Below the pieces are notes generated by a model. The model did no database searches. It was not told where the DNA came from and saw only the letters and a program-made list of their open reading frames with translations. A stretch of DNA of 64,000 bases, from NCBI RefSeq assembly GCF_011046735.1, contig NZ_CP049258.1, positions 4,916,001 through 4,980,000 on the forward strand, in the 5' to 3' direction. Shown here one piece after another: positions 10,449 through 54,523 of the stretch (position 1 is the first letter of the stretch; each line of letters begins with the position of its first letter). The position numbers and the translations under genes were made by a program. The stretch comes from Nordella sp. HKS 07. Its GTDB lineage: Bacteria > Pseudomonadota > Alphaproteobacteria > Rhizobiales > Aestuariivirgaceae.

Positions 10449-11041
10449 AACTTAGAATTCCGGCCGCGAGCCACTTCCAGACCGAAACTCCCGACGCCCA
10501 CGGCTACGCGCCCTTCCACCGCGGCGATGACGGATGCGGCGTCTTGCGTGTCGAAACCATAGAGCTCGATGAGCTCGACGCCCGCCGCCACCATTTCGCG
10601 CGCTGCCGCGACCGCGCCTGCCGCATCGGGCACGGCAATCAGAGTCGATATCTGCGGCGGCCGCTTCTGCACTGTGCGGTCGCGCTGGGCATCGGCGCCC
10701 GGCAGCCTGATGATGAAGGCATCCTTCATGTCCTTGCCCGCCTCGAAATTGGCGCTGAAGGCGGCGGCCAGACGGATGGACTCGAAGCCGAAGGTGACCG
10801 AGCTCACCGGCACCGCGCCATCGACTGCGCGGCTCACCTTGTCGCGCCAGATGGGGGACATGCTGCCGCACAGCTCGATGCGCCGGGCGCCCCCAGTGAC
10901 GAGCGTCTTCGCCCAGGCAAGCGCATGGCTCGGCTCGGCGACCGTCACGATGGTGACCTTGTTCGCTCCTTTCTCGATGTCGATGCTTTCGCCTTCGGGT
11001 CCGACGCGCGGCGATTCATAGATCACGGCAAACTTCGTCAT
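10439..11041 (-). CDS. DUF6506-type protein, internally duplicated
   Basis: A 200-residue protein without a known reaction. Two halves repeat the same pattern: residues 1-100 with FAVIYESP, then a PSHALAWAKTLVTGGARRIEL helix (quoted part AWAKTLVTGGARRIEL), then SSVTFGFES; residues 105-195 with AFIIRLPG, then AAAREMVAAGVELIELYGF, then VAVGVGSFGLE. The resemblance suggests a tandem duplication of an about 95-residue domain like DUF6506. The ATG at 11041 is chosen because GGAG lies nine bases before it; a second ATG at 11050 abuts the GGAG. It is divergent from a LysR gene, its likely regulator. Confidence 0.75.
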   Translation of the reverse strand: MTKFAVIYESPRVGPEGESIDIEKGANKVTIVTVAEPSHALAWAKTLVTGGARRIELCGSMSPIWRDKVSRAVDGAVPVSSVTFGFESIRLAAAFSANFEAGKDMKDAFIIRLPGADAQRDRTVQKRPPQISTLIAVPDAAGAVAAAREMVAAGVELIELYGFDTQDAASVIAAVEGRVAVGVGSFGLEVARGRNSKFSA

Positions 11042-11138
11042 GTCGCTCATCTCCAGTGGGGTACGACAGAGAGATGACATTCTTAAGCGATCGACGTAAT
11101 TGATAAATTTCTGCTCATCTTGATCTAAGAGATCGATC

Positions 11139-12074
11139 ATGTTGGATGGCCTGACCCTCGACCAGCTTCGTATCTTCATCGCCGTGGCGAAGGCCGGCAG
11201 CTTCCGCGCGGCGGCGGCCCGGCTCGGTCGCGTCCAGTCGGCGGTGAGCCATGCGATCGCCAATCTCGAAGCTGAGCTGCGCCTTACCTTGTTCGACCGG
11301 TCCGCGCATCGCCCGGAGCTGACGCCCGAGGGCAGGGCGTTGCTCGCCGATGCGCGCGCCGCCGTGCAGCGCATGGACTCTCTGAAAGCCCGCGCGCGCG
11401 GCCTGGGCGCCGGGATCGAGCTGGAGCTCCCGATCGCGCTTGATCCGCTTTTTCCCTATCCGCTTGCCGCCGCCGCGCTGAAGGACATGCATGAGGACTT
11501 CCCCTCGGTCGCGGTGCGGCTGTGGGAAGCACCGCTGGCCGAGCCGATCGCCGCCTTGCGTGACAAGCGCTGCGTGCTGGCGCTGACGACCGTCGATTTC
11601 CCCGATGCTGAAATCGAGATGGAGCAGCTGCCCATCTCCCCGCCGGCCAGTTTCATCGCCGTTGCCGCGCCATCGCATCCGCTGGCAAGGCACCCGGGCG
11701 AAGCTCCGCCGCTCAGCGCGCAGGACCTGGCCGATCACCTGCAGATCGTGGTCGAGGATCGCTCATCCCTCACGCGCGGCAAGGATTTCGGCGTGTTCTC
11801 CGCCGGCACCTGGCGGGTGAGCGACATGCAGACGAAATATGCGCTCATTCGCGAAGGATTGGGCTGGGGTCGCCTGCCCGGCTGGTGGATCGAGCGCGAT
11901 CTGGCTGAAAAGCGCCTGGTGCCGGTGAGGACGGCGGCTTTCGGTCCCGATGGCGAGATGATCATTCGCGCCTGCCTCGCGCGCCGCAGCGACGATGCCT
12001 TGGGACCGGCGGCGCGTTGCCTGCGCGAGGCCTTGTTGCGGCGTGCGCGCGGCAAGGCGCTGACTGCAATGTGA
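11139..12074 (+). CDS. LysR-family transcriptional regulator
   Basis: A 311-residue regulator. The N-terminal winged helix (4-65) reads LDQLRIFIAVAKAGSFRAAA, then QSAVSHAIANLEAELRLTLF, followed by the linker helix and a substrate-binding domain from about residue 90. LysR proteins usually regulate the divergent gene, here the DUF6506-type protein 97 bases away. The ligand is unknown. Leftward and rightward starts are separated by an AT-rich gap where TNA-type LysR sites could lie. Confidence 0.92.
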   Translation: MLDGLTLDQLRIFIAVAKAGSFRAAAARLGRVQSAVSHAIANLEAELRLTLFDRSAHRPELTPEGRALLADARAAVQRMDSLKARARGLGAGIELELPIALDPLFPYPLAAAALKDMHEDFPSVAVRLWEAPLAEPIAALRDKRCVLALTTVDFPDAEIEMEQLPISPPASFIAVAAPSHPLARHPGEAPPLSAQDLADHLQIVVEDRSSLTRGKDFGVFSAGTWRVSDMQTKYALIREGLGWGRLPGWWIERDLAEKRLVPVRTAAFGPDGEMIIRACLARRSDDALGPAARCLREALLRRARGKALTAM

Positions 12075-14416: not shown

Positions 14417-14646
14417 GTCTTTGTCCTCTTCGTTTCAGACGTGGAAATCGTTGGGGGACCAGTAGAACACCGAAAGCAGATCTTAGCGTGTGATAGGCCG
14501 TTGTTGCAATCTCACGGCATGCCGGGGCGAGCATTTACTTTGTCGACCGGTGCCGCGCCTTTGGCCATTCTCCCGAATCGTGCGGCATTGTAGGTTGCGG
14601 GATCGCTTCCCGTCGGGAGGATGAGGCCATTCTAACAATCGGTGCG

Positions 14647-15804
14647 ATGAACAAGTGCCGGACAGGCGCTCTGGCGGCGGTGCTGTGGCTGGCCGCGACG
14701 GCGGCGGGCGCGCAAACGCCCGGCGTTGCGACGGACCGTATCCTGTTCGGCCAGTCGGCGGCTTTGGGCGGGCCTACCGCCGATCTCGGCAATGAGATGC
14801 GCCGCGGCATCCTGGCCGCCTTCGAGGAAGTGAACCGGGCAGGGGGTGTCGGCGGGCGCCGCCTGGAGTTGCGCTCTTATGACGACCGTTACGAGCCGGA
14901 GCTGGCGATCGCCAATACACGCCGGCTCATCGAGGACGACGGCGTATTCGCCCTGATCGGCGGGGTCGGCACGACGACATCGGCTGCCAGTGAGCCCCTC
15001 GCGCGCGCCGCCGGCGTGCCCTTCATCGCCCCTTTCTCCGGTGCCGAGTTCCTGCGCGATCCGGCCCTCGGCCATGTCGTGAATGTGCGCGCCTCCTATT
15101 ATGAGGAGACCGAAGCGATGGTCGAGCGCCTGACCAGCGATCTCGGCATCTCGCGCATCGGCGTCCTCTATCAGGACGATTCCTATGGCCGCAACGGCCT
15201 CGCCGGCGTCCGCCGGGCGCTCGACCGGCGTGGACTCGAGCTCGCCGGCACCGGCACCTATATGCGCAACACCACCGCCGTGAAGACCGCCCTTCTGGGG
15301 CTCGGCCGAGGCAATCCTGACGCGATCGTCATCATCGGCGCCTATATGCCGAGCGCCGTCTTCACCCGCTGGGCGCGCAAGCTTGGCGTCGAGGCCCCCA
15401 TCTTCAATATCTCCTTCGTCGGCAGCGATGCGCTCGCGGCGGCGCTTGGGCCGGCGGGAGACGGCGTCTACATCACCCAGGTCGTGCCCTTTCCCGACGG
15501 CGGGTCGCTGCCGCTGCTCGCTGAATACCGCAAGGCTCTTGTCGCCCACGAGGCGGCGGCGCGGCCGTCCTTCGTCTCACTCGAAGGTTATATCGCCGGC
15601 CGGCTCACCGCGGAGGTGCTGGCCCGGGCGGGGGAGGCGCCGACGCGCGCGAGCTTCCTGTCGGCGCTCACCACCACGGGCAAGTTCGACATTGGCGGCT
15701 TCACGCTGCGCTACGGGCCGGGCGACAACCGGGGCTCCGACCAGGTCTTCCTGACGGTAGTCCGCAAGGGCGACATCTTTTCGGCCGAGCGGCTTGCACC
15801 ATGA
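14647..15804 (+). CDS. Periplasmic ligand-binding protein (branched-chain amino acid type), cyclase partner
   Basis: A 385-residue Peripla_BP_6 protein with a signal peptide (TGALAAVLWLAATAAGAQ, residues 5-22). ILFGQSAALGGPTADLG and the GVAFIAPF-like GVPFIAPFSG segment belong to the ligand cleft. Its stop codon overlaps the ATG of a membrane adenylate cyclase by four bases (ATGA), and no ABC permease or ATPase is near. It is therefore more likely to present a ligand to the cyclase's periplasmic domain than to feed a transporter. Confidence 0.9.
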   Translation: MNKCRTGALAAVLWLAATAAGAQTPGVATDRILFGQSAALGGPTADLGNEMRRGILAAFEEVNRAGGVGGRRLELRSYDDRYEPELAIANTRRLIEDDGVFALIGGVGTTTSAASEPLARAAGVPFIAPFSGAEFLRDPALGHVVNVRASYYEETEAMVERLTSDLGISRIGVLYQDDSYGRNGLAGVRRALDRRGLELAGTGTYMRNTTAVKTALLGLGRGNPDAIVIIGAYMPSAVFTRWARKLGVEAPIFNISFVGSDALAAALGPAGDGVYITQVVPFPDGGSLPLLAEYRKALVAHEAAARPSFVSLEGYIAGRLTAEVLARAGEAPTRASFLSALTTTGKFDIGGFTLRYGPGDNRGSDQVFLTVVRKGDIFSAERLAP

Positions 15805-17924
15805 ACATCGCCGCCGCCGCACCTCAGATCCGACGCCGGCGGCCGCGTCTTGGCCTCTCCATCAAGCTTTATGTGGCGATCGCCGGCGCGGTGGCGCTGA
15901 TCCTGGCGGCGAGCGTCGTCGCCTGGATCTCCTTCGTCGAGCTCGGCCAGCTGCAGCGCCGCATCACGCGTGAGCACATTCCCTCGATGACCGACTCCCT
16001 GCGGCTCGCGCAGCGGAGCGCGCTGATTGCGGCGACCGCGCCGGCCCTGGTCTCGGCCGCCAGCGAGGCGGAACGCGAAGCGCTGATGCAGGCGGTCAGA
16101 GACCATCAGCGCATGATCGGCGCGCTGATCGACGATCTCGAACGGCAGAGCGCCAATGCCACCGATCCCGGCAACCCCAAGCAGCATATTACCGGGATCA
16201 GGCAAGCGACCGGCGAACTCGCGACCGCCCTCGACCGGCTCGATGGATCGGTCGGACGCCAGCTTCTGCTCAAGGCCGAGCTTGCCGAGCGCCGCGACCG
16301 GGCGGTGGAACTGCATCGCCGCCTGATCGGGCGGCTGACGCCGCTTCTCGACGATGCGACCATGTACCTGGTCACCGGATATCGAACTCTCGAGGATCCG
16401 GCACCGGTCTTGGCGGGGGAGCGACTTTCGCAGGAGGCGCTGCTCGATTACACAGCGATTGCTCAACTCGGCATCGAGGGCAATCTGATCGGCGGCTTTC
16501 TCGCCGAAGCGGCCAATATCCCCGATGTCACGCTGTTGCCGCCGCTGCGCGAGCGCTATGAGGCGGCGGCGGATCGCTTCCGGACCGCGCTTGCGGTCGT
16601 GAGAGGCAACGAGGCGGAGGTGCTGCGCGTCATCGCCGACGGCCTGATCAATCTGGGCGAGGGGGCAAGCGGCATATTTGTGCCGCGCCACGCTTTGCTT
16701 GTCGAAACCCAGGCTGCCGAAGCGCTGGCCGGCGAGGCGCGGACCATCGCGGCGCGGCTGACCGGTGATGTCGACCGGCTCGTGGCCGGCGTCAGGGCGA
16801 GGACCGATGAAGCCGTCGCCGCCTCCAACCGCGCGATCGATGTCGGCAGCAAGCTGCTCTTCGTGCTCAACGCCATCAGCATCATGGGCGCGCTTCTGAT
16901 CGGCTGGTGGTATGTGGCGCGCCAGGTCACCGCACCGGTGGTGCGCATCACCGATGCCGCCGCGTCCTTCGAGGAGCGGCGCTTCGATCCCGAAAGCCTC
17001 AGCCATGTGCGCACGCGCACCGACGAACTGGGAGATCTCGCCCGCACCTTCACGCGCATGGCGGGCGAGGTCCAGACCCGCACCGACACGCTCGACCGCC
17101 TGGTGGCCGAGCGCACCAGCGAATTGGAGAATGTCGCCAACCGCCTGGCCAAATATCTGTCGCCGCAGATCTACAGTTCGATCTTCTCGGCCAAGGGTGC
17201 CGCGACGGGCACGCTGGCGCGCAAGAACCTGACCATCTTCTTCTCCGACATTGCGGGCTTCACCGACATCAGCGACGGCATGGAGCCCGAGCGCTTGTCC
17301 TTCTTCATCAATACTTACTTGAGCGAGATGTCGAACATCGCCATCGAGCATGGCGGCACCATCGACAAGTTCATCGGCGATGCGATGCTGGTGTTCTTCG
17401 GCGATCCGGAAACGGAAGGGGACCGCAATGACGCCTTGCGCTGCGCCCGCATGGCGCTGCGCATGCGCGAGCGGGTGATAGAGCTCGACAAGACCTGGCA
17501 CGAGAACGGCATCTCGAAGCCTTTGCGCACCCGCATGGGCATCACCACAGGTTATTGCACGGTGGGCAATTTCGGCTCCGAGCATCGTCTCGACTACACG
17601 GTGCTCGGCGGCACGGTGAATCTCGCCGCCAGGCTCGAGACGCGGGCCGAGCCCGGCACCATCCTGATGGCCGATTCCACCTGGCTCCTCATCCAGGATG
17701 TCGCGGACGCCACGCCGATGGGCGAGATCACGCCGAAGGGCTTTGCCCGCCCCGTCGGCTGCTATCGCCTGAATGGCCTTGTTGCGCCCGACACCGCGGA
17801 TGCGGTGCAGCTCGCCGGCCGCCATGTCACGGTCTCTGTCGCGCATAAACGCCACATTCAGGAAGCGATCGAGGAAATGCGCCGCATGGAAGAGGATCTG
17901 GCGCGCCGCCTGCCGGCCGATTGA
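15801..17924 (+). CDS. Membrane adenylate cyclase, class III, with periplasmic sensor and HAMP
   Basis: A 707-residue inner-membrane sensor making a cyclic nucleotide. Segments: membrane helix about 23-47; helical periplasmic domain about 48-350, resembling TorS-type sensors; membrane helix about 352-375; HAMP about 376-430; class III catalytic domain about 470-660. Metal aspartates are D483 in FFSDIAGF and D527 in DKFIGDAM. K523 and D598 (HRLDYT) are the adenine-selecting pair, and N607 and R611 in GGTVNLAARLE are the transition-state residues, so cAMP is predicted. It is translationally coupled to a periplasmic binding protein. Confidence 0.93.
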   Translation: MNIAAAAPQIRRRRPRLGLSIKLYVAIAGAVALILAASVVAWISFVELGQLQRRITREHIPSMTDSLRLAQRSALIAATAPALVSAASEAEREALMQAVRDHQRMIGALIDDLERQSANATDPGNPKQHITGIRQATGELATALDRLDGSVGRQLLLKAELAERRDRAVELHRRLIGRLTPLLDDATMYLVTGYRTLEDPAPVLAGERLSQEALLDYTAIAQLGIEGNLIGGFLAEAANIPDVTLLPPLRERYEAAADRFRTALAVVRGNEAEVLRVIADGLINLGEGASGIFVPRHALLVETQAAEALAGEARTIAARLTGDVDRLVAGVRARTDEAVAASNRAIDVGSKLLFVLNAISIMGALLIGWWYVARQVTAPVVRITDAAASFEERRFDPESLSHVRTRTDELGDLARTFTRMAGEVQTRTDTLDRLVAERTSELENVANRLAKYLSPQIYSSIFSAKGAATGTLARKNLTIFFSDIAGFTDISDGMEPERLSFFINTYLSEMSNIAIEHGGTIDKFIGDAMLVFFGDPETEGDRNDALRCARMALRMRERVIELDKTWHENGISKPLRTRMGITTGYCTVGNFGSEHRLDYTVLGGTVNLAARLETRAEPGTILMADSTWLLIQDVADATPMGEITPKGFARPVGCYRLNGLVAPDTADAVQLAGRHVTVSVAHKRHIQEAIEEMRRMEEDLARRLPAD

Positions 17925-26379: not shown

Positions 26380-27081
26380 GTGACGGCGACTCCTATCGTG
26401 ATCCGGTTTGTCATGGCCTCACCAGTCATACTGAGTGATGGGGCGAGCCTTGATGCCGTGGCTACCTTCCAGGGCTTCGCAAGGGGCGAAGATGGGGTCC
26501 AATTACTGAACCAGCTGTTCGTAAGGAACGGCAGTGTTCATTGTGCCTCATGGCTGTTTCCGGAGACGGAATACATAGTCGACCGCGCGGAGTTCGTAAG
26601 GCTGCAGCGGACGGGCACGGCGCTCAACACCCGAACACTACTGCCGCCAAGAGGACAGACCGACGCCTTTAGAGTTGACAACAAGCGGGGCATAGCCGCC
26701 AACAAACGGACTACGATGACGACTATCGCCACGCCCGCGATATGGGCGTTCGCGACGGGCGATCTTTCAGCCATCGCCAAAATGCTTTCGGATGTGAGCA
26801 GCATCGGCATCAAGCGAGCGAACGGCTTTGGTCGAGTTCAGCGCATTGATATAAGCCGTGCAGAGGGCTGGCCCGGATTCGGCAAGCTGATGCGAGACGG
26901 CTCACCTGCCCGAGCCATACCTGTCGACGAATGCCAGGCAGTGACAAAGCGCGGCGCCTACGTTCTTGGCTTTCCCCGGTGGTCGGCCGCGCCGGAGCAA
27001 TGCGCCATACCAACAAGAAAGACTGTCGACCCCACTATCTTTGCCGAACTGGTTCCAGCCGCCGAACTGGAGTTCTCATGA
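26380..27081 (+). CDS. csf3: Type IV CRISPR Csf3 (Cas5-like RAMP)
   Basis: A 233-residue RAMP protein expected to bind the 5' handle of the crRNA and cap the type IV effector. The start IVIRFVMASPVILSDGASLD is a RAMP beta1-alpha1 unit, and SIGIKRANGFGRVQRI (about 144-159) is the glycine-rich loop. It starts at a GTG preceded by GGGG; stops in all positions upstream exclude an earlier ATG. Its TGA overlaps the next ATG (ATGA). The call rests on motifs and on the Cas7, Cas6 and DinG neighbours. Confidence 0.82.
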   Translation: MTATPIVIRFVMASPVILSDGASLDAVATFQGFARGEDGVQLLNQLFVRNGSVHCASWLFPETEYIVDRAEFVRLQRTGTALNTRTLLPPRGQTDAFRVDNKRGIAANKRTTMTTIATPAIWAFATGDLSAIAKMLSDVSSIGIKRANGFGRVQRIDISRAEGWPGFGKLMRDGSPARAIPVDECQAVTKRGAYVLGFPRWSAAPEQCAIPTRKTVDPTIFAELVPAAELEFS

Positions 27082-27665
27082 GCGGCGGGATGATTGACCA
27101 ATTCGCGATTGCCTTCGAGGTCGCCAGGCACTGGCTGCCGGAAGATGAACAAGGCAGTGACAACCGCGCCAACGTGCTGCGGGCCCTGTCGCGGCCGCAG
27201 GTGACCGACCCCGAGAAGGCGGCACGGCGTCTTACCGTTGGGTGGTTCATTGCAACCCCGGATGGCGGGTATCACAACCTGGGCGCCGAACCACTGCGCT
27301 CCCTGAGCAATCGCGTGGTCCGAGGGACCAGTATCGAGGAGACCATCGGTGACCAGCCGATTGAGAGGCCGACCGTAGTCGTCAGACTCGCGAAGGCGGG
27401 ACTTTCAATCCGAAACTTCCAGCCCAGCTACGGCGATACACTGCGCATCAACGAAGCGGGCAAGCCCACAAGCAACATCGACCTCGCGAATGTTCGCGAC
27501 CTCACCAGACTGACCTGGCGGGTCAAGCCCGGGGCCAAATGGGTGTACCAAACCCGCAGGGCGCTCGTCGAGGCGAAGTTCGGCAACCCGGCGGGGCTGC
27601 AGACTCTCCCTAGCCACCCTTCAACGATGACCCTGCTGATCTGCTCAAGGCCATCGACAGGATGA
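27078..27665 (+). CDS. Csf1-position (Cas8-like) subunit, frameshifted near the 3' end
   Basis: Reads 195 residues from an ATG overlapping the csf3 stop. It starts MSGGMIDQFAIAFEVARHWL and contains VVVRLAKAGLSIRNFQPSYG. No zinc-finger cysteines of classical Csf1 are visible. The frame ends at 27665, but the next frame continues DPADLLKAIDRMTQDEITYA and IALMIRRIKK to a stop at 27719-27721, which overlaps the GTG of the Cas6 gene in the same coupled manner as the gene's own start. Adding one base at about 27617-27621 (CACCCTTC) joins the two frames and gives a product of about 214 residues. Role as large-subunit-like protein is inferred from position. Confidence 0.6.
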   Translation: MSGGMIDQFAIAFEVARHWLPEDEQGSDNRANVLRALSRPQVTDPEKAARRLTVGWFIATPDGGYHNLGAEPLRSLSNRVVRGTSIEETIGDQPIERPTVVVRLAKAGLSIRNFQPSYGDTLRINEAGKPTSNIDLANVRDLTRLTWRVKPGAKWVYQTRRALVEAKFGNPAGLQTLPSHPSTMTLLICSRPSTG

Positions 27666-27717
27666 CTCAAGACGAGATCACTTATGCCATCGCACTCATG
27701 ATCCGGAGGATAAAGAA

Positions 27718-28257
27718 GTGAGGCAGGCAACCTTTCCCACGTTGGAGACCAACACCTACGTCCTTCACCAGCAGATAGAGAAGCTGATGGGTGGCCGTGG
27801 AGCGAACCACTATGTGTGGTCTGCGGAACCCATAGGCAACCGGATGACGGCCATTACCATCAGATCGGCAGCACTTCCTCCGGTCCTCGAGAAGTATGGC
27901 GTGACGCTCCCCTCGACTTTCCACGTCGGAGAAGTGAGGCGCTTCAGCCTCGTGGCGCAGTGCGCGATTAGAAGGGGCGAAAAGAACAACCGGGTCGCCA
28001 TCGACGTGGATGATGATGAGCGAAGGCACGAGTGGCTTCGGCGACGTGCGGCCCTGAACGGCTTTGAAGTCGTCAGTGCCGAGATCGCGACTGTGGAGCG
28101 TATTCGCATCGGGAAGACGGGTGCTCGCCACGTGGCGGACCGGACCCGGTTCGAGGGAACACTGAAGATCACGGATCCTGAGAAGTTTGCGAACGCCATG
28201 CGCATGGGTATTGGTCATGGCAAGGCGTTCGGCCTTGGCCTCATCGACGTCGGCTGA
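27718..28257 (+). CDS. cas6: Cas6e-like crRNA-processing endoribonuclease (Csf5 position)
   Basis: A 179-residue RAMP nuclease that cuts the repeat RNA. TNTYVLHQQIEKLMGG near residue 11 matches the Cas6e motif with the catalytic histidine (H17), and GIGHGKAFGLGLIDVG at the C-terminus is the glycine-rich loop. The GTG start follows GGAGG by eight bases. Cutting at the base of the repeat hairpin would leave the 8-base 5' handle ACTGAAAG, analogous to type I-E processing. It lies between the csf1-position gene and csf2. Confidence 0.85.
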   Translation: MRQATFPTLETNTYVLHQQIEKLMGGRGANHYVWSAEPIGNRMTAITIRSAALPPVLEKYGVTLPSTFHVGEVRRFSLVAQCAIRRGEKNNRVAIDVDDDERRHEWLRRRAALNGFEVVSAEIATVERIRIGKTGARHVADRTRFEGTLKITDPEKFANAMRMGIGHGKAFGLGLIDVG

Positions 28258-28273
28258 ACGAGGGGACACAACA

Positions 28274-29383
28274 ATGAACTATAGCATCACGGGCCAAGGA
28301 TACATTACCGCGGAGACACCGGTCGCCGTGTCTCCTCCGGATCACTACAGCGAAGCCAGGCGGCTACTCCAGCTGCCGAGGGAGACCGTTTACCGCGACG
28401 GCTCGCCACAGAAGTTTCCCATTATCCCTGCTTCGACCTTCCGCGGGGCACTGCGCCACGCCGTGACCGGCCACACCTTTGAGGCACTGAACGAGGTGGC
28501 ACAGAAGAAGCTGTTCAAAGTGAACGACTACATCTGGACGGCGCAAGGCGGCGTTACAGACAGGAGGGAAGAAGGTGTCGAGAGCTTTGTTGAAATCTCG
28601 ATACCGGCACGGGTCCGTGCAGAGAACCCCATCATGGGACTGTGGGGAAACTTCACGTTCAAGATGGGTTCGCTGATCGAGATGCGCTCGGCGAGAGCAG
28701 TGGACGGTGAAGCCGCGATCGTTCTGATACCGGCGCAGGTGCGCACCGACCCCCTTGAGCGCGACTATGGTCTGTTGGGGATTTTTGACAAGACGGACCT
28801 CGGCGCCTTCAAGGATGAAATCATTGCGCGACGGCAGATGGTCAAAGCCGAGAAACGGGCCGAACAGCTGGAGCATCGGCTTCAGCAGGTCGCAGACGGA
28901 AAGCGTGAGATGACGCCGGAGCAAGTCAAGGCCCTCAAGGCCGAGATCGCGCAACTGAAAGATGATGCGGAGGTCCTCGCGGAGAAAGCGGGAGGTGCAG
29001 TGAACCTTCAGCAGATCACGACGCGGTATGAAGCAATAGCTTCGGGTGGAGAACTGGAGCACGGATGGGCACTCAGGGATGTATCGGTGGACGAGGCGGC
29101 AGTATTCCTGTTGGCCTGGCGTGCGTGGGTTGCGAATGGCTCACGAGTCGGCGCCATTCAGCGCAGCGGCTTCGGGAAATTGAAGGGCCACTACGATATC
29201 CTGATCAAGCCGTCACAGGGTGCGAATCGGCTGGATGCACCGGTCGCCGCCGGACGCATGAAGTTTTCATACGAGGCAGGTGTACAAATCGAGACGGGCG
29301 ATGACGTATTGCAGAAGATCGTCGGTGCGGAGGACGCGATGAGAAAGGAAGGATTCGCGAATTGGAACCTGAAAGCTTCATAG
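28274..29383 (+). CDS. csf2: Type IV CRISPR Csf2 (Cas7 backbone) with coiled-coil insert
   Basis: A 369-residue backbone subunit that polymerises on the spacer part of the crRNA. IPASTFRGALRHAV near residue 50 and ENPIMGLWGNF near residue 118 are typical of Csf2/Cas7. Residues about 175-245 form a charged heptad-like coiled coil (KAEKRAEQLEHRLQQVADGK, then ALKAEIAQLKDDAEVLAEKA), not expected in a compact Cas7. GSRVGAIQRSGFGKLKG near residue 295 is a second loop. GAGGGG lies nine bases before the ATG. Sixty-five bases separate its stop from the array. Confidence 0.85.
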   Translation: MNYSITGQGYITAETPVAVSPPDHYSEARRLLQLPRETVYRDGSPQKFPIIPASTFRGALRHAVTGHTFEALNEVAQKKLFKVNDYIWTAQGGVTDRREEGVESFVEISIPARVRAENPIMGLWGNFTFKMGSLIEMRSARAVDGEAAIVLIPAQVRTDPLERDYGLLGIFDKTDLGAFKDEIIARRQMVKAEKRAEQLEHRLQQVADGKREMTPEQVKALKAEIAQLKDDAEVLAEKAGGAVNLQQITTRYEAIASGGELEHGWALRDVSVDEAAVFLLAWRAWVANGSRVGAIQRSGFGKLKGHYDILIKPSQGANRLDAPVAAGRMKFSYEAGVQIETGDDVLQKIVGAEDAMRKEGFANWNLKAS

Positions 29384-29445
29384 GCAATTTTGCTGCGGAC
29401 GATGAGTGTTTGTATCGGAAAGCCCGTAACAAATGCGATATCAGG

Positions 29446-30338
29446 GGTTCAGCCCCCCTCGATTTGAAGGGGGGACTGAAAGACCACTCCCGCCACATCC
29501 GCAGGGGCGGGGCATACAGACCCCATCGAATTGAAAGGGGACTGAAAGGTGACGCGGCTCAGATCCATCAGCGCCCATGGTACAGCCCCCCTCGATCTGA
29601 AGGGGGACTGAAAGCCCTCAATGGAGAGAGAGAATGAGCGAGCGTTGCAGCCCCACTCGATTTGAAGGGGGACTGAAAGGTGACGAACGTCCGCAACACC
29701 AAGTCAATCCGTTACAGCCCCCCTCGATTTGAAGGGGGACTGAAAGTGCGTCAACCGCACGTCGCGGCCGAATATCGTTGCAGCCTTCCCTCGATTTGAA
29801 GGGGGACTGAAAGCCGGCGAACGGCACAACCGTCGAACCGTGGGTTGCAGCCCCCTCGATTTGAAGGGGGACTGAAAGCCGGCGAACGGCACAACCGTCG
29901 AACCGTGGGTTGCAGCCCCCTCGATTTGAAGGGGGACTGAAAGGGGAGAACGGCAGAGAGGCAGGCGCGGGCGGTTGTAGACCCCCTCGATTTGAAGGGG
30001 GACTGAAAGCTCAAACACGATCAAGGAGACGTGAGATGAGTTGCAGACCCCCTCGATTTGCAGGGGGGCTGAAAGTCGGGGAACGTATTGTTCGCCTTGA
30101 TCACAGTTGCAGGCCCCCTAGATTTGTAGGGGGATTGAAAGGGAATGAGGTTGGCGAATAGCTGGGCCCCGGTTGCAGACCCCCTCGATTTGAAGGAGGA
30201 CTGAAAGTAATCGTACCAGCCGATGAGTTCATCGTTGGGTATGGCCCCCTCGATATGTAGGGGGACTGAAAGTCCCCGCAATCTCAAGGAGAATAGAGCA
30301 TTGGAGCAAACCTCCTCGATTTGAAGGGGGACTGAAAG
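29446..30338 (+). CRISPR. CRISPR array, 14 repeats, 13 spacers, type IV
   Basis: Repeats of 35-37 bases end at 29482, 29548, 29614, 29679, 29746, 29813, 29878, 29943, 30009, 30075, 30141, 30207, 30272 and 30338. The consensus has GTTGCAG, a hairpin CCCCCTCGATTTGAAGGGGG, and the 3' handle ACTGAAAG. Spacers are 29-31 bases. Spacers 6 (29814-29843) and 7 (29879-29908) are identical, a 65-base unit duplication. Both ends are degenerate: repeat 2 has CCCCATCGAATTGAAAGGGG, repeat 13 lacks GTTGCAG, and repeat 14 begins GGAGCAAACCTCC. It is read in the same direction as the cas genes and lies between csf2 and csf4. Confidence 0.97.
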
Positions 30339-30396
30339 TAGAGGATGGCGAGGAAGCGGAGTTCCTTGAGCCAGTAAATTCGGTTAGACACGTGCG

Positions 30397-32367
30397 ATGA
30401 CTTCGACGTCTCGCATCCTTTCGCGTATTCTCACACCGCGCGACCAACAGAAGCGGCTAGCCGAGTTCATTGACGGCGCGGCTTCACCTGCCATCGCAGT
30501 TCAGGCCGATACGGGCACGGGGAAGACTGCCGTCCTGCTGTCGGCAGCAATCGCGGAAGCAAAGCGCGGTCGCCGGGCAATCGTCAGTACTCATACCATC
30601 CAGCTGCTCCACCAGGTCGAACGCGAGGCGGCCCGGTTTAGTACGGAAGGCGTCAGTTTTGGAACGCGATTGGGAATGCGCAACTTCATCTCTGTGTCAC
30701 GGGCGAACTCGGCTTTTGCCCGTCTGCTGTCCAGAGATGACGCGACCGCAGAAGATGAAGCCGTCTTCTCCGATCTGATGAACTTCGCCGAGAGTCGTTC
30801 AGGCCTGATCGAGGACTTCGTTGCCGAGTGCGGGGATCTCCCGGCCGGGTTGAAGCCCCATGAGATTTGCCTCCTTCCCTCGGCGCGTGCCTCTGATCGT
30901 GCGGCCTGGCAGAGAGCAACGGAGGCAGTGCGTGAGACAGAGATCGTCATTCAGACACACGCTCTCACGCTTGCTCAGGCCCGTTTCGGCCAGCTTCCAC
31001 CAGTCGTCATCTTCGACGAGGCCGATGCACTGAGCGATGTGGCCGACTCTGCCGAAGACAATCGGCTGTCTCTGGCTGAACTCCAGGCACTCTTGAAATA
31101 TGCCGGTGTAAGCACCGCCGCCCTTGATAGGGTTACAGCGGAGCCGCGCGACTTCAAACTTCGCGAGGACCTCGCCGCGACGCTCAAGATCAAACATGAG
31201 GATGAGGACGTCCGGTTCGCAATGAGCAATGCGCAACGGATACTCACGGCCCACAAACGGGACGGACCGCGCCGCGGAACAGATGTGATCCGCGAGGGTA
31301 ACGATACAATCATACGCGCACTTTGGGCAGACCGCGCCCACTGGATCTGGCGGAACCTGACTGATGCTGGCGCGCAGCGGTCCATCTTTGCCTCGGCAAC
31401 CTTGGCGGTTGGTGACCAGGTAGGCCTCTCGTTGCGGCGATATGGAGTACCGCTTGCGTCCACCGAAGCTGCCAGCTTCTCCCCGCGCAACTTCGGCACC
31501 ATGGACTTCAGGGTCATCCCGGAGACGACACCCGCGCCCGTCCAGGATAGGACAGTCAACGACGCGTGGCGCGAAGAAGCAAGTCTTTGGCTGACGCGCG
31601 AAGGGCTGATGCGCAAGGACAGTCGCCCGCTGGTGCTGGCCCAGAGCTACGCTGACACGGCGTACTTCGCCGAACGCCTCGGAATAATCGGACATGAGCG
31701 TGGACAACCTCTCGCGAGGTTTGTCGAACGGTTTCGGAGCGGAGACATCCAGGGACTGGCGACACCTGCGGGTTGGGCCGGAATAGATCTCCCAGGACTG
31801 ATCACGGACGTGGTCGTCCTTCGGCTGCCATATGGAGTAATTGACGACCTAAAGACCGAACTGACCGGCCGAACCGACTTTCCTGCAATCAAGGCGGCGA
31901 TGCAACGCAAGCTGAAGCAGGGGCTGGGGCGAGGCATCCGAAAGGAAGATGATCAGGTGACCGTTTGGCTCGCGGACCCCCGTGTCCACGATCTTCGCAA
32001 TGGCATTCTCGCTGCAATCCCCGAGAGGTTCCGCAACGCCTTTCTGGTCTCATTGAATCAAGTGCGAATGCGACTTGCCGCAGTCCGGACAGAGCAGGAA
32101 AGGTTCCGGGACGCACTCCTCGCGCATCATGGCGGTCGATGCGTCGTGACCGGCAGCAATGTCGAGGCCGTACTGGAAGCCGCTCACCGCCCGGGCAAGT
32201 CATGGAAGGCCGGTCACAACCGCGTTGAAGATGGGCTGCTTGTTCGATCCGACATCCACAAGCTGATCGACGATGGACTACTGACCATCACGGATAATGT
32301 AGTAAGCGTCGATCCGTCTGTGGCTGCCGAATACGGTCAGTACGAAGGGAAGGTAATCGCGACATAA
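30397..32367 (+). CDS. csf4: Csf4/CasDinG helicase with C-terminal HNH nuclease domain
   Basis: A 656-residue protein. Residues 1-560 form a DinG-family superfamily 2 helicase: Walker A ADTGTGKT (37-44), DEAD box IFDEAD (205-210), motif III FASATL (331-336), motif VI QGLGRGIRKEDD (508-519). The four cysteines of a DinG iron-sulfur cluster are absent, as in CasDinG. Residues about 565-640 are an HNH_2-type domain: RCVVTG (C582), LEAAHRPG (H597), EDGLLVRSDIHKLIDDGLL (D612, H621). The usual asparagine before GLL is aspartate. Recruited by the type IV-A complex, it should unwind target DNA; the HNH domain predicts cutting. It starts 58 bases after the array. Confidence 0.93.
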   Translation: MTSTSRILSRILTPRDQQKRLAEFIDGAASPAIAVQADTGTGKTAVLLSAAIAEAKRGRRAIVSTHTIQLLHQVEREAARFSTEGVSFGTRLGMRNFISVSRANSAFARLLSRDDATAEDEAVFSDLMNFAESRSGLIEDFVAECGDLPAGLKPHEICLLPSARASDRAAWQRATEAVRETEIVIQTHALTLAQARFGQLPPVVIFDEADALSDVADSAEDNRLSLAELQALLKYAGVSTAALDRVTAEPRDFKLREDLAATLKIKHEDEDVRFAMSNAQRILTAHKRDGPRRGTDVIREGNDTIIRALWADRAHWIWRNLTDAGAQRSIFASATLAVGDQVGLSLRRYGVPLASTEAASFSPRNFGTMDFRVIPETTPAPVQDRTVNDAWREEASLWLTREGLMRKDSRPLVLAQSYADTAYFAERLGIIGHERGQPLARFVERFRSGDIQGLATPAGWAGIDLPGLITDVVVLRLPYGVIDDLKTELTGRTDFPAIKAAMQRKLKQGLGRGIRKEDDQVTVWLADPRVHDLRNGILAAIPERFRNAFLVSLNQVRMRLAAVRTEQERFRDALLAHHGGRCVVTGSNVEAVLEAAHRPGKSWKAGHNRVEDGLLVRSDIHKLIDDGLLTITDNVVSVDPSVAAEYGQYEGKVIAT

Positions 32368-33411: not shown

Positions 33412-33740
33412 GGCATTCTCCTGTTGTCTTGGCTTTCGGCCGCCCCCAGCACTTTTCGCTGCGCGTCAAGCGTGGTTTTAGCCGATACGGGGAGAGGGTC
33501 TATCGAGCCCAATGTGGCGCCAACATCGCAGGTTTCTTACAAATAGTTATTCGAACTGATCGCAATTGCGGCGTCTGCTGCAATCGGATCTGCAACTGCT
33601 GTGCTACGACTTGATCCGGTTGCCTGATGGGTCGTCGAGTAAGCAAAAGGTCACCAGCTGCTCCAATCAGTTCGCTCTTAAGCCACGTGGGCATGCCCTA
33701 AAGTCAAAACTGTCGGAAGAAGAACTGCAGACTGTGAGGC
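33412..33740. other. Gene-free stretch
   Basis: No convincing gene on either strand. It separates the DUF1344 gene, whose promoter it must contain, from the integrase remnant. Confidence 0.4.
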
Positions 33741-34023
33741 ATGGCTATTGCGTTCGCACCGCTGAAAGCGGCTCTCGATGATGACCGCGGCAAAGCCGGC
33801 CCCATCCTGCTGAACAGCGACAAGCGGCCTTGGACAGGAGACCGGTTCCGTTCTTCATGGCGCAAAGCCAACAGAAGCGGAGATCGCCACCATTACCGGC
33901 CATAGCCTTGGTGACGTGCGGTCGATTCTTGATGCGCACTACTTGCACCGTGATCCCACACGTGAATCAGCGATCCGAAAGCTCGAAAAGAGAACGATTT
34001 CTCCCAACCGAGCGTCCAACTGA
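33741..34023 (+). pseudogene. Tyrosine integrase remnant with internal deletion
   Basis: The first frame reads APLKAALDDDRGKAGPILLN and WTGDRFRSSWRKAN, the region ahead of the catalytic core. It then jumps to another frame with TEAEIATITGHSLGDVRSIL and DAHYLHRDPT, the family's C-terminal box II with its histidine and tyrosine. The HxLR part is deleted at the junction (about 33870). It marks an older integration beside the tRNA fragment at 34071. Confidence 0.8.
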
Positions 34024-34070
34024 CCTGGAATGCTCCAGATGACCAATAAGGAAAGTGTAAGAAAAACAAG

Positions 34071-34119
34071 TGGCTGGGGAACTAGGATTCGAACCTAGAC
34101 TGGCGGAGTCAGAGTCCGC
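34071..34119 (-). other. Attachment site: 3' fragment of tRNA-Gln(CUG)
   Basis: On the minus strand the sequence gives anticodon stem-loop GCGGACTCTGACTCCGC (loop CTCTGAC, anticodon CTG), variable loop, T-arm CTAGGTTCGAATCCTAG, and the acceptor end TTCCCCAGCCA. The D-arm and 5' acceptor half are absent: upstream DNA is unrelated and AT-rich. A duplicated tRNA 3' half next to an integrase gene is the classical att scar of an integrated element. Confidence 0.88.
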
Positions 34120-34239
34120 AAGTCTAATATATGGAATCATTCGGTATATCTGATATTGCTGGATTTTTTTGCTTGATAGTTGCGCCTTTTGCGTTTATTT
34201 GATCCCTGTCGGTTACACAACGGTTACATGGAAGATGGA

Positions 34240-35418
34240 ATGCCAAGACTGACGGAAACCCGGGCCCTGCGCGCCAAACTGCCCAAAAAGGGCACGAAAT
34301 TTGACTGGTGTTCGGAGGTTAGAACCTTCGGCGCACGCTACACGCCGGGCAGCCGGACTTGGGTGGTTTACCCACGCTGCACGAACGGCATCCGCGTCAT
34401 GATTGCCCTTGGCGCGGTCGGCGTGCTGCCCTTCGAGGGGCCGCCCCACCGCCCCGGCGCGCGCGATCTTGCCATTGCCGCCATTACAGCGGCAAGGCGA
34501 GGGGAGGACCCACGCGTAGCTATCGGGCAGGCGAACGCCCCGGAAGGCCTGACGCTTGCCGAGGTGTGGCAAGCCTACGCGGACGCCGGTTTTCCGAAGC
34601 TGAAGGGTACAGGCCGCAAGCGCGCCTCGACGATCAAGCGCGACACCGATCGCTATAATTACCGCATCAAGCCGATGCTCGGGGGCGAGGCGGTAAGCCG
34701 AATCGATACGGCAAGGGTCCGGCGCTGGCTCGATACCATCGAAGCGGACGGTCAGCGCAACCATTCGCTGGTGCTCCTGAAAAGTCTCCTGTCGTTTGCC
34801 GCATCGCGCAATCTGGCGACCACTCAGGCAATCGCCATCTCGGCTCAGAAATCCAAGGAAATGCAGAACTTCTACACGACCGACGAACTGGTGCGGCTCG
34901 ACGCGGCTATGGTCGAGCTCATGCGGGAGAAGCCCGAACGGCGAATGGGTTTCGCGGCCTTGCGCCTGCTCCTGCTGACTGGCGCGCGTAAGGGCCAAAT
35001 CCTGTCGCTACGCTGGTCCGACGTCGACCTGAAACACGGAGTACTCGCGCTTGAAAAGGATAAGACGAGCGAAAATCGCAGAGATATCCTCCTGCTGCCG
35101 GAAGCCGTGGCGATTCTTAAGGGGTTGCCGAGGAGGAGTTCCTCGTTCGTGTTCCCCGCCGATTCGAAATCGGGCCATACGGTCAACATCGAAAAGCACC
35201 TCAATGACGCAGTCGAGCGCGCCGGTGTCAACCTTCACAGAATTCATGATCTGCGGCATAGTTTTGCGAGCGCAGCCATTAGAACAGGCACGAGCTTGTA
35301 CGTCACTGGCCAGCTGCTCGGCCACAAACAAGCCACCACCACACAGCGTTATGCCCACCTTGAGCATGATGTAGCGCGCGAGGCTTTGGAGCGTATCGCC
35401 AAGGCAATAGGAGGTTGA
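34240..35418 (+). CDS. int: Tyrosine-type site-specific integrase
   Basis: A 392-residue recombinase. An N-terminal arm-type domain (about 1-80) precedes a core-binding domain (about 90-190) and the catalytic domain. The catalytic residues are in GARKGQILSLRW (Arg), LHRIHDLRHSFASAA (His and Arg), LLGHKQATTTQRYAHL (His and nucleophilic Tyr). It lies 120 bases from the tRNA-Gln fragment and should have integrated its element there. The start could also be 34228 (MEDGMPRL); GGAAG favours 34240. Confidence 0.9.
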   Translation: MPRLTETRALRAKLPKKGTKFDWCSEVRTFGARYTPGSRTWVVYPRCTNGIRVMIALGAVGVLPFEGPPHRPGARDLAIAAITAARRGEDPRVAIGQANAPEGLTLAEVWQAYADAGFPKLKGTGRKRASTIKRDTDRYNYRIKPMLGGEAVSRIDTARVRRWLDTIEADGQRNHSLVLLKSLLSFAASRNLATTQAIAISAQKSKEMQNFYTTDELVRLDAAMVELMREKPERRMGFAALRLLLLTGARKGQILSLRWSDVDLKHGVLALEKDKTSENRRDILLLPEAVAILKGLPRRSSSFVFPADSKSGHTVNIEKHLNDAVERAGVNLHRIHDLRHSFASAAIRTGTSLYVTGQLLGHKQATTTQRYAHLEHDVAREALERIAKAIGG

Positions 35419-52672: not shown

Positions 52673-52816
52673 CGTTGGTCTCCAGTAGTGGGTCAGCCCG
52701 AAGGTCACTATCTGGAACACGGGTTGCCTCAGGCCATTCTCAATGCAGCATTGGCCTGCACGGAACTTAGCACGCTGGGCAAGTGTTAACGCATAGTCTT
52801 AAGGGTGAAGACGAAG

Positions 52817-54523
52817 ATGTACCTGATTTCGGTGGCCACCGACTACGACGGCACTTTGGCGCATAACGGGCGCGTTGATCCACCAACGATTGCGGCATTC
52901 GAACGGTTGAAGGCCAGTGGCCGCAAGCTGTTGATGGTTACTGGTCGGGAATTACCACACCTAAAGCGGGTGTTCGCGCGCCTCGACCTTTTCGACGGCG
53001 TTGTTGCTGAGAACGGCTCACTTCTCTACTTTCCAGAACGAGAGGAGGAACGCTTGGTAGCTGCTAAGCCTCCGGCGGAACTTGTGGCCGCGCTAAGAAA
53101 TCGTGGCGTTCATCCGTTGTCGGTGGGAGGGGGCATCATCGCCACTTGGGAGCCCAACGAGACAACGGTGCTGGAATGTATACGGGAACTCGGATTGGAA
53201 TGGCAAATAATCTTCAACAAGGGTGCCGTTATGGTGCTGCCACCTGGCGTCAACAAGGCGACAGGTTTGGCCGCAGCGCTCAATGTACTAGAAATCTCTC
53301 CGCTCAACGTGCTGGGCATTGGCGACGCCGAGAACGATCATGCCTTCCTGACGGCGAGCGGTTGCTCGGCCGCGGTTTCTAATGCGATAGATTCAGTTAA
53401 AGAAGTCGTTGACGTGGTTACGAGTGGTGACCACGGCGCCGGCGTGATTGAAATAATTGATGCGCTGCTCTCCGATGAACAAGTCTTCACTTCTCTTGCC
53501 GCAAAGCGCCACAAGATTTCACTTGGCAAAGATGAGGCGGCCGTATTGCAACCCGAGCACGGTGCGGTCCTGATCGCAGGTGCCTCTGGAATCGGCAAAT
53601 CGACCCTCGCTACAGCCATCATAGAGAAGCTGATAGGTCGGGGATTTGAGATCTGTGTGTTCGACCCAGAGGGAGACTATGATGATTTAGAGAAGGCGAT
53701 TGTTCTCGGCGACGCACAACGGGCCCCAGTTATAGATGAAGTTCTTGACATCCTACGCAAGCCCGTCGACATGGCTTTGGTGGTCAATATGTTAGGCTTG
53801 CCCCTAGAAGAGCGCCCGAAGTTCTTTGCTGAACTCCTCTCGCGGATTCAGCAAATGCGCAGCAAAATTGCTCGGCCGCATTGGCTAGTAGTTGACGAGG
53901 CCCACCATATGCTACCCGCAGAATCGGAAGTCAGCGATGTCAGTCTCCCAGATCCACTTTCTGCGGTAATTTACGTTACTGTGCACCCGGAAGCGATGCG
54001 CCCCAAGGCGTTAGCCGCCGTGCAAATCGTGATCGGCGTCGGACCAAAGGCAAATCAAGTCGTATTGAGCTTTTGTGCTGCAACCGGAACAGCGACACCC
54101 ACACTTCCGTCGTCAGGTAAAGATGAGGAGGTATTGTTCTGGGATCGGACCTCTGGTGAACCACCTCGATGGATCGGCGTCGATCGTCCGCAACAGGAGC
54201 ATCAACGACATACGCGCAAATATGCCCAAGGGGATCTTGGGGAAGACAACAGCTTTTATTTCCGAGGCCCACGCGGCAAGCTGAACCTCCGAGCGCAAAA
54301 CCTTATGATTTTCCTTCAGATAGCTGACGGCGTTGATGACAAGACTTGGTTGCACCACCTCCACCGTGGGGATTACAGCCGTTGGTTTCGCGAGTCGATA
54401 AAGGACGAAAAGCTGGCAGACGAGGTGGAGAAGGTACAGGACGACGCCGATCCTGTAACAACTCGCAAAGACGTTCGTGCGATAGTCGAGCGCCGCTATA
54501 CTGCACCATCTCAGACTTCCTAA
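52817..54523 (+). CDS. HAD-IIB phosphatase fused to a HerA-type ATPase
   Basis: A 568-residue fusion. Residues 1-225 are a HAD-IIB (Cof/sucrose-phosphatase-like) hydrolase: ATDYDGTLAHNG supplies the DxD nucleophile, VTGRE motif II, NKATGL motif III lysine, GIGDAENDHAFL motif IV. Residues 245-430 are a RecA-fold ATPase: Walker A GASGIGKSTLATAI, Walker B PHWLVVDEAHHMLP. The rest is a charged helical tail. A GTG at 52805 would add four residues. It lies near a glycosyltransferase, so sugar phosphates are possible substrates. Confidence 0.85.
   Translation: MYLISVATDYDGTLAHNGRVDPPTIAAFERLKASGRKLLMVTGRELPHLKRVFARLDLFDGVVAENGSLLYFPEREEERLVAAKPPAELVAALRNRGVHPLSVGGGIIATWEPNETTVLECIRELGLEWQIIFNKGAVMVLPPGVNKATGLAAALNVLEISPLNVLGIGDAENDHAFLTASGCSAAVSNAIDSVKEVVDVVTSGDHGAGVIEIIDALLSDEQVFTSLAAKRHKISLGKDEAAVLQPEHGAVLIAGASGIGKSTLATAIIEKLIGRGFEICVFDPEGDYDDLEKAIVLGDAQRAPVIDEVLDILRKPVDMALVVNMLGLPLEERPKFFAELLSRIQQMRSKIARPHWLVVDEAHHMLPAESEVSDVSLPDPLSAVIYVTVHPEAMRPKALAAVQIVIGVGPKANQVVLSFCAATGTATPTLPSSGKDEEVLFWDRTSGEPPRWIGVDRPQQEHQRHTRKYAQGDLGEDNSFYFRGPRGKLNLRAQNLMIFLQIADGVDDKTWLHHLHRGDYSRWFRESIKDEKLADEVEKVQDDADPVTTRKDVRAIVERRYTAPSQTS

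Follow-up and report, generated by a model that had tools for sequence, protein, structure and literature searches.

Gene content of the locus

The DNA analysed here (the window, 64,000 nucleotides) belongs to a genome assembled as a single contig of 7.18 Mb. Positions 26,380-32,367 of the window carry a type IV-A CRISPR-Cas locus whose helicase gene, csf4, encodes a DinG protein with an HNH nuclease domain at its C-terminus. Every gene lies on the + strand, in the order csf3/cas5, a csf1/cas8-position open reading frame (ORF), cas6e, csf2/cas7 and csf4/CasDinG, and the CRISPR array stands between csf2 and csf4.

26380..27081, + strand: csf3 (type IV cas5), 233 amino acids, GTG start; PADLOC Csf3_0_IV at 3.2e-23
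27078..27665, + strand: csf1/cas8-position gene, 195 amino acids as read, with a frame break near the 3' end
27718..28257, + strand: cas6e-type endonuclease for CRISPR RNA (crRNA), 179 amino acids, GTG start; PADLOC Cas6e at 1.2e-25
28274..29383, + strand: csf2 (type IV cas7), 369 amino acids; PADLOC Csf2_0_IV at 2.7e-35
29447..30338, + strand: CRISPR array, 14 repeats of 36 nt and 13 spacers of 29-31 nt
30397..32367, + strand: csf4 (CasDinG-HNH), 656 amino acids; PADLOC Csf4_0_IVA at 2e-67, 226 bits

Four of the five effector genes were named by PADLOC profiles, the csf1-position gene being the one left without a name, and the ORFs of csf3, cas6e, csf2 and csf4 are open over their full length. 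The cas6e product scored above the cut-off of NCBIfam casE_Cse3 (47.9 against 45.2 bits) and gave 76.5 bits with Pfam PF08798, and that of csf2 gave 28.6 bits with Pfam RAMPs (cut-off 22.1). In NCBIfam, csf2 reached 59 bits with cas7_csf2, below the cut-off of 130, and csf3 reached 35.4 bits with cas5_csf3, far below the cut-off of 140 bits; a Pfam search with the csf3 product gave no match. Of the components by which a type IV-A system is recognised, type IV csf2 and csf3, csf4/CasDinG, cas6 and an array were found by PADLOC and the array analysis, and each element listed in an initial annotation of this DNA (csf3, a csf1-position gene, a Cas6e-like gene, csf2, the array and csf4) was recovered in its place.

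The csf1-position gene was matched by nothing above cut-off in Pfam, PADLOC or NCBIfam, nor by a profile search of the PDB. Its structure model, a poor one, gave no Foldseek match at E 0.001, and 7xg1_A, a type IV-A Csf chain, appeared at E 4.5. Its assignment comes from its position and from synteny with locus L007 of a metagenome-assembled genome (MAG) from Lake Baikal, in which an open counterpart of 205 amino acids (45% identity) stands at the same place in the locus. The initial annotation had not noticed the frame break at the 3' end. Translated in the frame of the ORF, window positions 27,096-27,584 matched residues 6-166 of the L007 protein (E 5e-41, 48.8% of 164). Residues 173-193 were matched at 27,629-27,694 by a different frame (E 0.36, 41% of 22, a match that is weak alone and collinear with the first). 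Since these collinear matches fall in two frames, the 3' end of the gene was judged to be out of frame. The second frame stays open between 27,614 and a stop codon at 27,719-27,721, just overlapping the start of cas6e.

The CasDinG-HNH protein

The csf4 product has complete helicase motifs (Walker A at residues 37-44, the DEAD box at 207-210 and QGLGRGIR from 508), and Pfam assigned to it DEAD (42.1 bits), Helicase_C_2 (39.5 bits) and HNH_2 (PF13391). The HNH_2 match covers residues 582-631 at the C-terminus with 28.5 bits against a curated cut-off of 21, and PF13391 matched nowhere else in the genome (31.4 bits in the whole-genome search). The PF13391 search, which the initial annotation had proposed, upheld its claim of a C-terminal HNH_2-type domain behind a complete DinG helicase. 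The HNH residues H597, D612 and H621 and the Walker B residues D207/E208 are kept. Among the CasDinG chains of the PDB, phmmer matched 8s35_M at 3.2e-9 and 7xex_A at 1.4e-4.

A protein of this kind could also be a repair helicase of the ordinary DinG/YoaA type that has an HNH tail and lies beside an array by chance. The best NCBIfam match by E-value was YoaA, at 83.9 bits and far below the cut-off of 680. However, the PADLOC match to Csf4_0_IVA reached 226 bits, the nearest relatives all adjoin csf3, cas6 and csf2, and the window helicase grouped apart from two chromosomal DinG proteins in a tree (support 100/100). This explanation is largely refuted, and we give it next to no weight.

Standalone HNH_2 endonucleases of plasmids and phages showed 36-46% identity to the HNH domain among the matches listed, the best of which was a Paraburkholderia plasmid protein (46.3%). 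No helicase fusion was seen in the eight that were examined, whereas the HNH domain of the window is fused.

The CRISPR array

The array has a period of 65-67 bp, and 12 of its 13 spacers are distinct, spacers 6 and 7 being identical. A 21-nt piece of the repeat gave seven matches with up to three mismatches, every one of them inside the array, and none of 100 shuffles reached seven. The consensus repeat was predicted to fold as a hairpin (-14.7 kcal/mol, z -3.2), and the native repeats of L007 and of a further related locus, L009, do so too. The sole match in Rfam was CRISPR-DR31, at 19.8 bits on the opposite strand and below the cut-off of 35.

Spacers 3 and 9 (29602-29711 and 29943-30040) resemble gene starts, having a Shine-Dalgarno-like motif and then ATG on the sense strand. 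In a set of 13 sequences, consisting of the 12 distinct spacers and the 31 nt after the last repeat, the pattern occurred in two on the sense strand and in none on the other (mononucleotide-shuffle P 0.03); the signal is weak, the pattern was picked post hoc, and it was not used.

Comparison with published systems

The initial annotation had referred to a 2023 report of DinG-HNH systems. This report exists and describes the same design, namely a variant type IV-A system in Sulfitobacter sp. JL08 that has five effector genes and whose DinG ends in an HNH domain (Altae-Tran et al. 2023; PMC10910872). The JL08 system was described as having a 5' YCN protospacer-adjacent motif (PAM), 30-nt spacers and directional cutting of both strands; its interference needs all five components, and activity was lost in mutants of Walker B (D139, E140) and of HNH (H497, D514, H523) (PMC10910872). 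Moving the JL08 HNH domain onto another CasDinG led to DNA cutting in vivo (PMC12714560), which supports this mechanism. The order of the published DinG-HNH loci is given as cas5, cas8, cas6, cas7, array and casDinG-HNH in a 2025 review (PMC11981726).

The window locus resembles that of JL08 in the C-terminal HNH domain on a type IV-A DinG, in the five effector genes and in the array between cas7 and dinG-HNH, and its spacers of 29-31 nt compare with 30 nt in JL08 crRNAs. By motif and spacing, not by alignment, H597/D612/H621 of the window correspond to H497/D514/H523 of JL08, and D207/E208 to D139/E140. The last two HNH residues are nine apart in both proteins, whereas the first two are 15 apart in the window and 17 in JL08. 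The JL08 protein is shorter, its Walker B lying at residue 139 as compared to 207 in the window (68 later) and its first HNH histidine at 497 as compared to 597. In addition, the JL08 HNH domain has a four-cysteine zinc knuckle (PMC11981726), whereas the HNH region of the window has one cysteine (582). Type IV-A1 and IV-A3 CasDinG systems (PDB 7xex, 8e2w, 8s35) share the Csf complex and the CasDinG helicase with the window; they are without HNH and their interference is nuclease-independent, unlike the window, in which CasDinG has HNH.

Based on these results, the locus is very probably a chromosomal type IV-A CRISPR-Cas system of the DinG-HNH variant. The sequence evidence that points to this reading includes five effector genes (by profile or synteny) and an array in the published order, an HNH_2 match above cut-off, the matching residues, the spacer length and a second full-length fused relative (L003/L007) in a locus of like order. 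The design has already been published and experimentally tested elsewhere, and the window is another example of it, not a new kind.

The window locus has the genes and the array, and its CasDinG has the motifs of both helicase and HNH along with catalytic residues; complex formation, PAM and cutting can be proposed by analogy with the JL08 experiments. Cas6e would cleave the transcribed array to give crRNAs, and Csf3, the Csf1-like subunit and about five copies of Csf2 would wrap a crRNA. This complex would locate a PAM-flanked match in invading double-stranded DNA, after which DinG-HNH would load onto the displaced strand and travel 5' to 3' with ATP, and the HNH domain would nick both strands, leading to degradation of the target much as by Cas3 in type I systems. 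The system in the window would operate without adaptation genes of its own. The initial annotation had predicted crRNA-guided unwinding and cutting of double-stranded DNA by one polypeptide. The JL08 design lends support to guided unwinding and cutting, and the wording "one polypeptide" is too simple, a crRNA complex being needed; the csf1 frame break further qualifies the prediction.

The HNH domain might instead be a passenger, with the helicase repressing transcription as in ordinary type IV-A systems. HNH-less type IV-A CasDinG is described as acting through nuclease-independent repression (PMC11519345). However, the HNH_2 match and the H/D/H residues are kept in the window, and HNH mutants of JL08 abolish interference (PMC10910872). 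The passenger explanation seems improbable to us as compared to that of a nuclease-bearing DinG-HNH system.

The second DinG-HNH member in the review is a protein of Nordella sp. HKS 07, which is chromosomal, has the residues H, H and D, has no zinc knuckle and carries about 60 extra residues in the pFeS region; according to the review, nothing but cas6 and an array is found upstream of it, and cas5, cas7 and cas8 are lacking (PMC11981726). The window agrees with this protein in being chromosomal, in the H/H/D residues, in having no zinc knuckle and in the array and cas6 upstream, and its 68 additional residues before Walker B, relative to JL08, may be set beside the extra pFeS residues of the review's protein. 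In contrast to the review's description, the window has csf3, a csf1-position gene and csf2. Since csf3 and csf2 score below their NCBIfam cut-offs and cas6e scores above its own, automatic annotation would suggest cas6 only. In plasmid loci of Halomonas and Alteromonas records, cas6 has a CRISPR name and the neighbouring genes are annotated as hypothetical protein. The window protein may be the Nordella protein itself, and the published lack of cas5, cas7 and cas8 would be an annotation artefact if the window comes from that genome. A complete effector set beside an HNH domain free of a zinc knuckle would resolve the published doubt about a JL08-type mechanism for such proteins.

Integrity of the system

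Several observations weigh against the DinG-HNH reading of the window. About the last 35 codons of the csf1-position gene are out of frame, and not all five effector components are intact; this concerns the activity of the copy, since the published variant is defined by an HNH fusion within a type IV-A locus. JL08 needs five intact components, and the frame break therefore places the activity of the window copy in doubt. The array has degenerate repeats at its two ends and a duplicated spacer. A search for cas1 with Pfam Cas_Cas1 gave no match in the genome (the control was positive in 9 of 14 genomes). The AlphaFold2 model left the HNH domain unresolved, with a predicted local distance difference test score (pLDDT) below 50 at residues 558-621; the models made from five- and four-row alignments were poor (mean pLDDT 54.7 and 56.6). 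As for L007, its dinG-HNH has an internal TAG, its cas6 has a frame break and its HNH domain scored 19.6 bits, below the cut-off of 21; these breaks reflect either a broken system or errors in the MAG.

In addition, no convincing protospacer above chance was found in phages, plasmids, the window's own genome or viral contigs. The array matched one phage record (E 0.3) and three plasmid records at one kind of place (E 0.9), in both cases across a repeat edge and at chance level. In its own genome, the array matched, beyond itself, at 87% over spacer 8 (E 0.48) and at 88% over 25 nt (E 0.90), again at chance level. For 3 of the 12 distinct spacers, a search of viral contigs with exact cores of 21-22 nt gave no match.

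Alternatively, the locus may be what is left of a DinG-HNH system that has decayed and become inactive, which would agree with the frame break, the degenerate end repeats and duplicated spacer, the broken integrase-like remnant that adjoins the locus and the failure to find cas1 in the genome. On the other hand, csf3, cas6e, csf2 and csf4 have full-length open reading frames with catalytic and ATPase residues kept, and a lone frame break seen in one genome could stem from an error in sequencing. Many type IV-A systems are without cas1, which also counts against a relic. We consider an inactive relic possible and rather unlikely. Within the DinG-HNH reading, the window copy may be decaying or silenced, unless the csf1 break is tolerated or reflects an error in the sequence.

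Distribution of relatives

Searches with the CasDinG-HNH protein found relatives in one of the 69 family genomes examined, one of 397 from the order and three of 385 from the class; these counts include the window's own genome, and no more than three candidates per genome were scored at the order and class levels. Fused relatives occurred in two of the 385 alphaproteobacterial genomes, namely the window's own and one MAG. In genome contigs, a single-protein search found no locus and an alignment search found four (L007-L010), and the alignment search of viral contigs found no relative locus. Plasmids gave 117 matching records, all below 60% identity, and none of the 30 matches listed extends past query residue 576, which leaves the HNH part uncovered. 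DinG-HNH systems are very rare, and every additional one is of use in delimiting the minimal nuclease module.

The fused relative of the Lake Baikal MAG (L003/L007) showed 46% identity over query residues 10-654. L007 has the same gene order as the window and a similar repeat of equal length and period, and its csf3 counterpart showed 39% identity. The initial annotation had considered the case of a DinG phylogeny with no CRISPR linkage in relatives; the nearest relatives do show such linkage, as csf3, a csf1-like gene, cas6, csf2 and an array were found in L007 and in two further loci, L008 and L009.

Loci with a separate HNH gene

L008 (OY282363.1) and L009 (OY282368.1) are loci in two MAG chromosomes that carry, in this order, csf3, a csf1-like gene, cas6, csf2, a CasDinG gene without HNH, an array and a separate HNH gene.

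L008:7965-11074 and L009:7968-10763: HNH-less CasDinG, array and separate HNH_2

The CasDinG proteins without HNH have 611 (L008) and 603 (L009) amino acids, and the arrays have 9-10 and 5 copies, respectively, with a period of 66. The separate HNH proteins, encoded beyond the array, have 176 and 193 amino acids and gave 32.4 and 29.3 bits with PF13391. Compared one gene at a time, the two cassettes share 65-76% identity; their DNA similarity is limited to the cassette and the flanks are unrelated, so the separate HNH gene travels with the cassette. A profile built from the four HNH domains gave no match at E 0.01 in six comparison loci, consisting of the plasmid CasDinG loci L054-L058, which have cas6 and an array, and the L010 contig. 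In L057, a Methylobacter plasmid, an annotated HNH endonuclease lies at 10995-11879 on the opposite strand, about 2 kb past the dinG of this HNH-less locus, and was not scored by the HNH profile.

A helicase tree of 12 rows joined the CasDinG proteins of the two fused and the two split loci in one clade (99/99), apart from L054-L058, L010 and two chromosomal DinG proteins. An 8-row csf2 tree supported each pair and did not place the four together. In a 12-row HNH tree (about 95 residues), the separate HNH domains grouped with an HNH of a Burkholderia ambifaria plasmid (97/98), and the two fused domains grouped weakly (57/25). Holding the four HNH domains together was disfavoured by the approximately unbiased (AU) test (p 0.038), a weak result from a test chosen after the tree had been seen. 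This test weakly suggests that the fused and separate HNH domains need not share one origin.

We tentatively propose, at somewhat less than even confidence for the proposal as a whole, that these loci represent one alphaproteobacterial CasDinG lineage in which HNH is either fused (window, L007) or separate (L008, L009), with a nuclease able to act in trans and perhaps recruited more than once, and that the lack of cas5, cas7 and cas8 in Nordella is an annotation artefact. Full-text literature searches, whose coverage leaves out supplements and most subscription papers, found no split DinG/HNH system. If functional, the split loci would represent a modular intermediate between repression by a helicase alone and degradation by helicase and nuclease together, one that the gain or loss of a single gene could put to a direct test.

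Genomic setting

Window positions 14,643-17,921 aligned to three sister genomes at about 85% (81% in one), and to the right of 17,921 the alignment was confined to a piece of 49-52 bp whose last position is 34,119. This piece lies among the following features.

33738..34019, + strand: integrase-like remnant, broken, in two frames, outside the CRISPR system (frame translations, TGHSLGDVRSILDAHYLH-type stretch)
34067..34119, - strand: 3' part of tRNA-Gln(CTG), an attachment-site copy, with 51-52 bp identical to the tRNA-Gln of the three sister genomes
34180..35418, + strand: intact tyrosine integrase of a 43-kb tRNA-Gln element, outside the CRISPR system; Pfam Phage_integrase 78.6 bits

A second copy of the tRNA-Gln piece lies 43,455 bp to the right, inside an intact tRNA-Gln, and the sequence beyond it matches the right flank of a sister genome. 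The two tRNA copies and this flank match indicate that a 43-kb element with an intact integrase is inserted at tRNA-Gln, and that the CRISPR locus lies just to its left and outside it. We take the remnant at 33738..34019, by eye and not by profile, to be tyrosine-integrase-like, and it presumably marks an older element. The initial annotation had placed the locus beside integrase remnants rather than on an obvious plasmid, and the remnants and a chromosomal setting are confirmed.

In the interval occupied by the CRISPR region in the window, the sister genomes have a gene that we take from its sequence to be MinD-like; a search for this gene in the window and the 15.5 kb that follow gave nothing. 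The G+C content drops from 0.633 to about 0.59 across the locus, and no left boundary of the putative older insertion was found. The setting of the CRISPR locus fits an older, decayed insertion.

The 43-kb element extends from 34067 to 77526, past the end of the window, and its cargo in the window includes two DUF892 genes, a glycosyltransferase, a major facilitator superfamily (MFS) transporter, an inorganic pyrophosphatase and a large phosphoesterase. At 52805-54523, a protein of 572 amino acids combines a HAD-type hydrolase domain with a P-loop ATPase region (Hydrolase_3 and DUF87/HerA-like matches).

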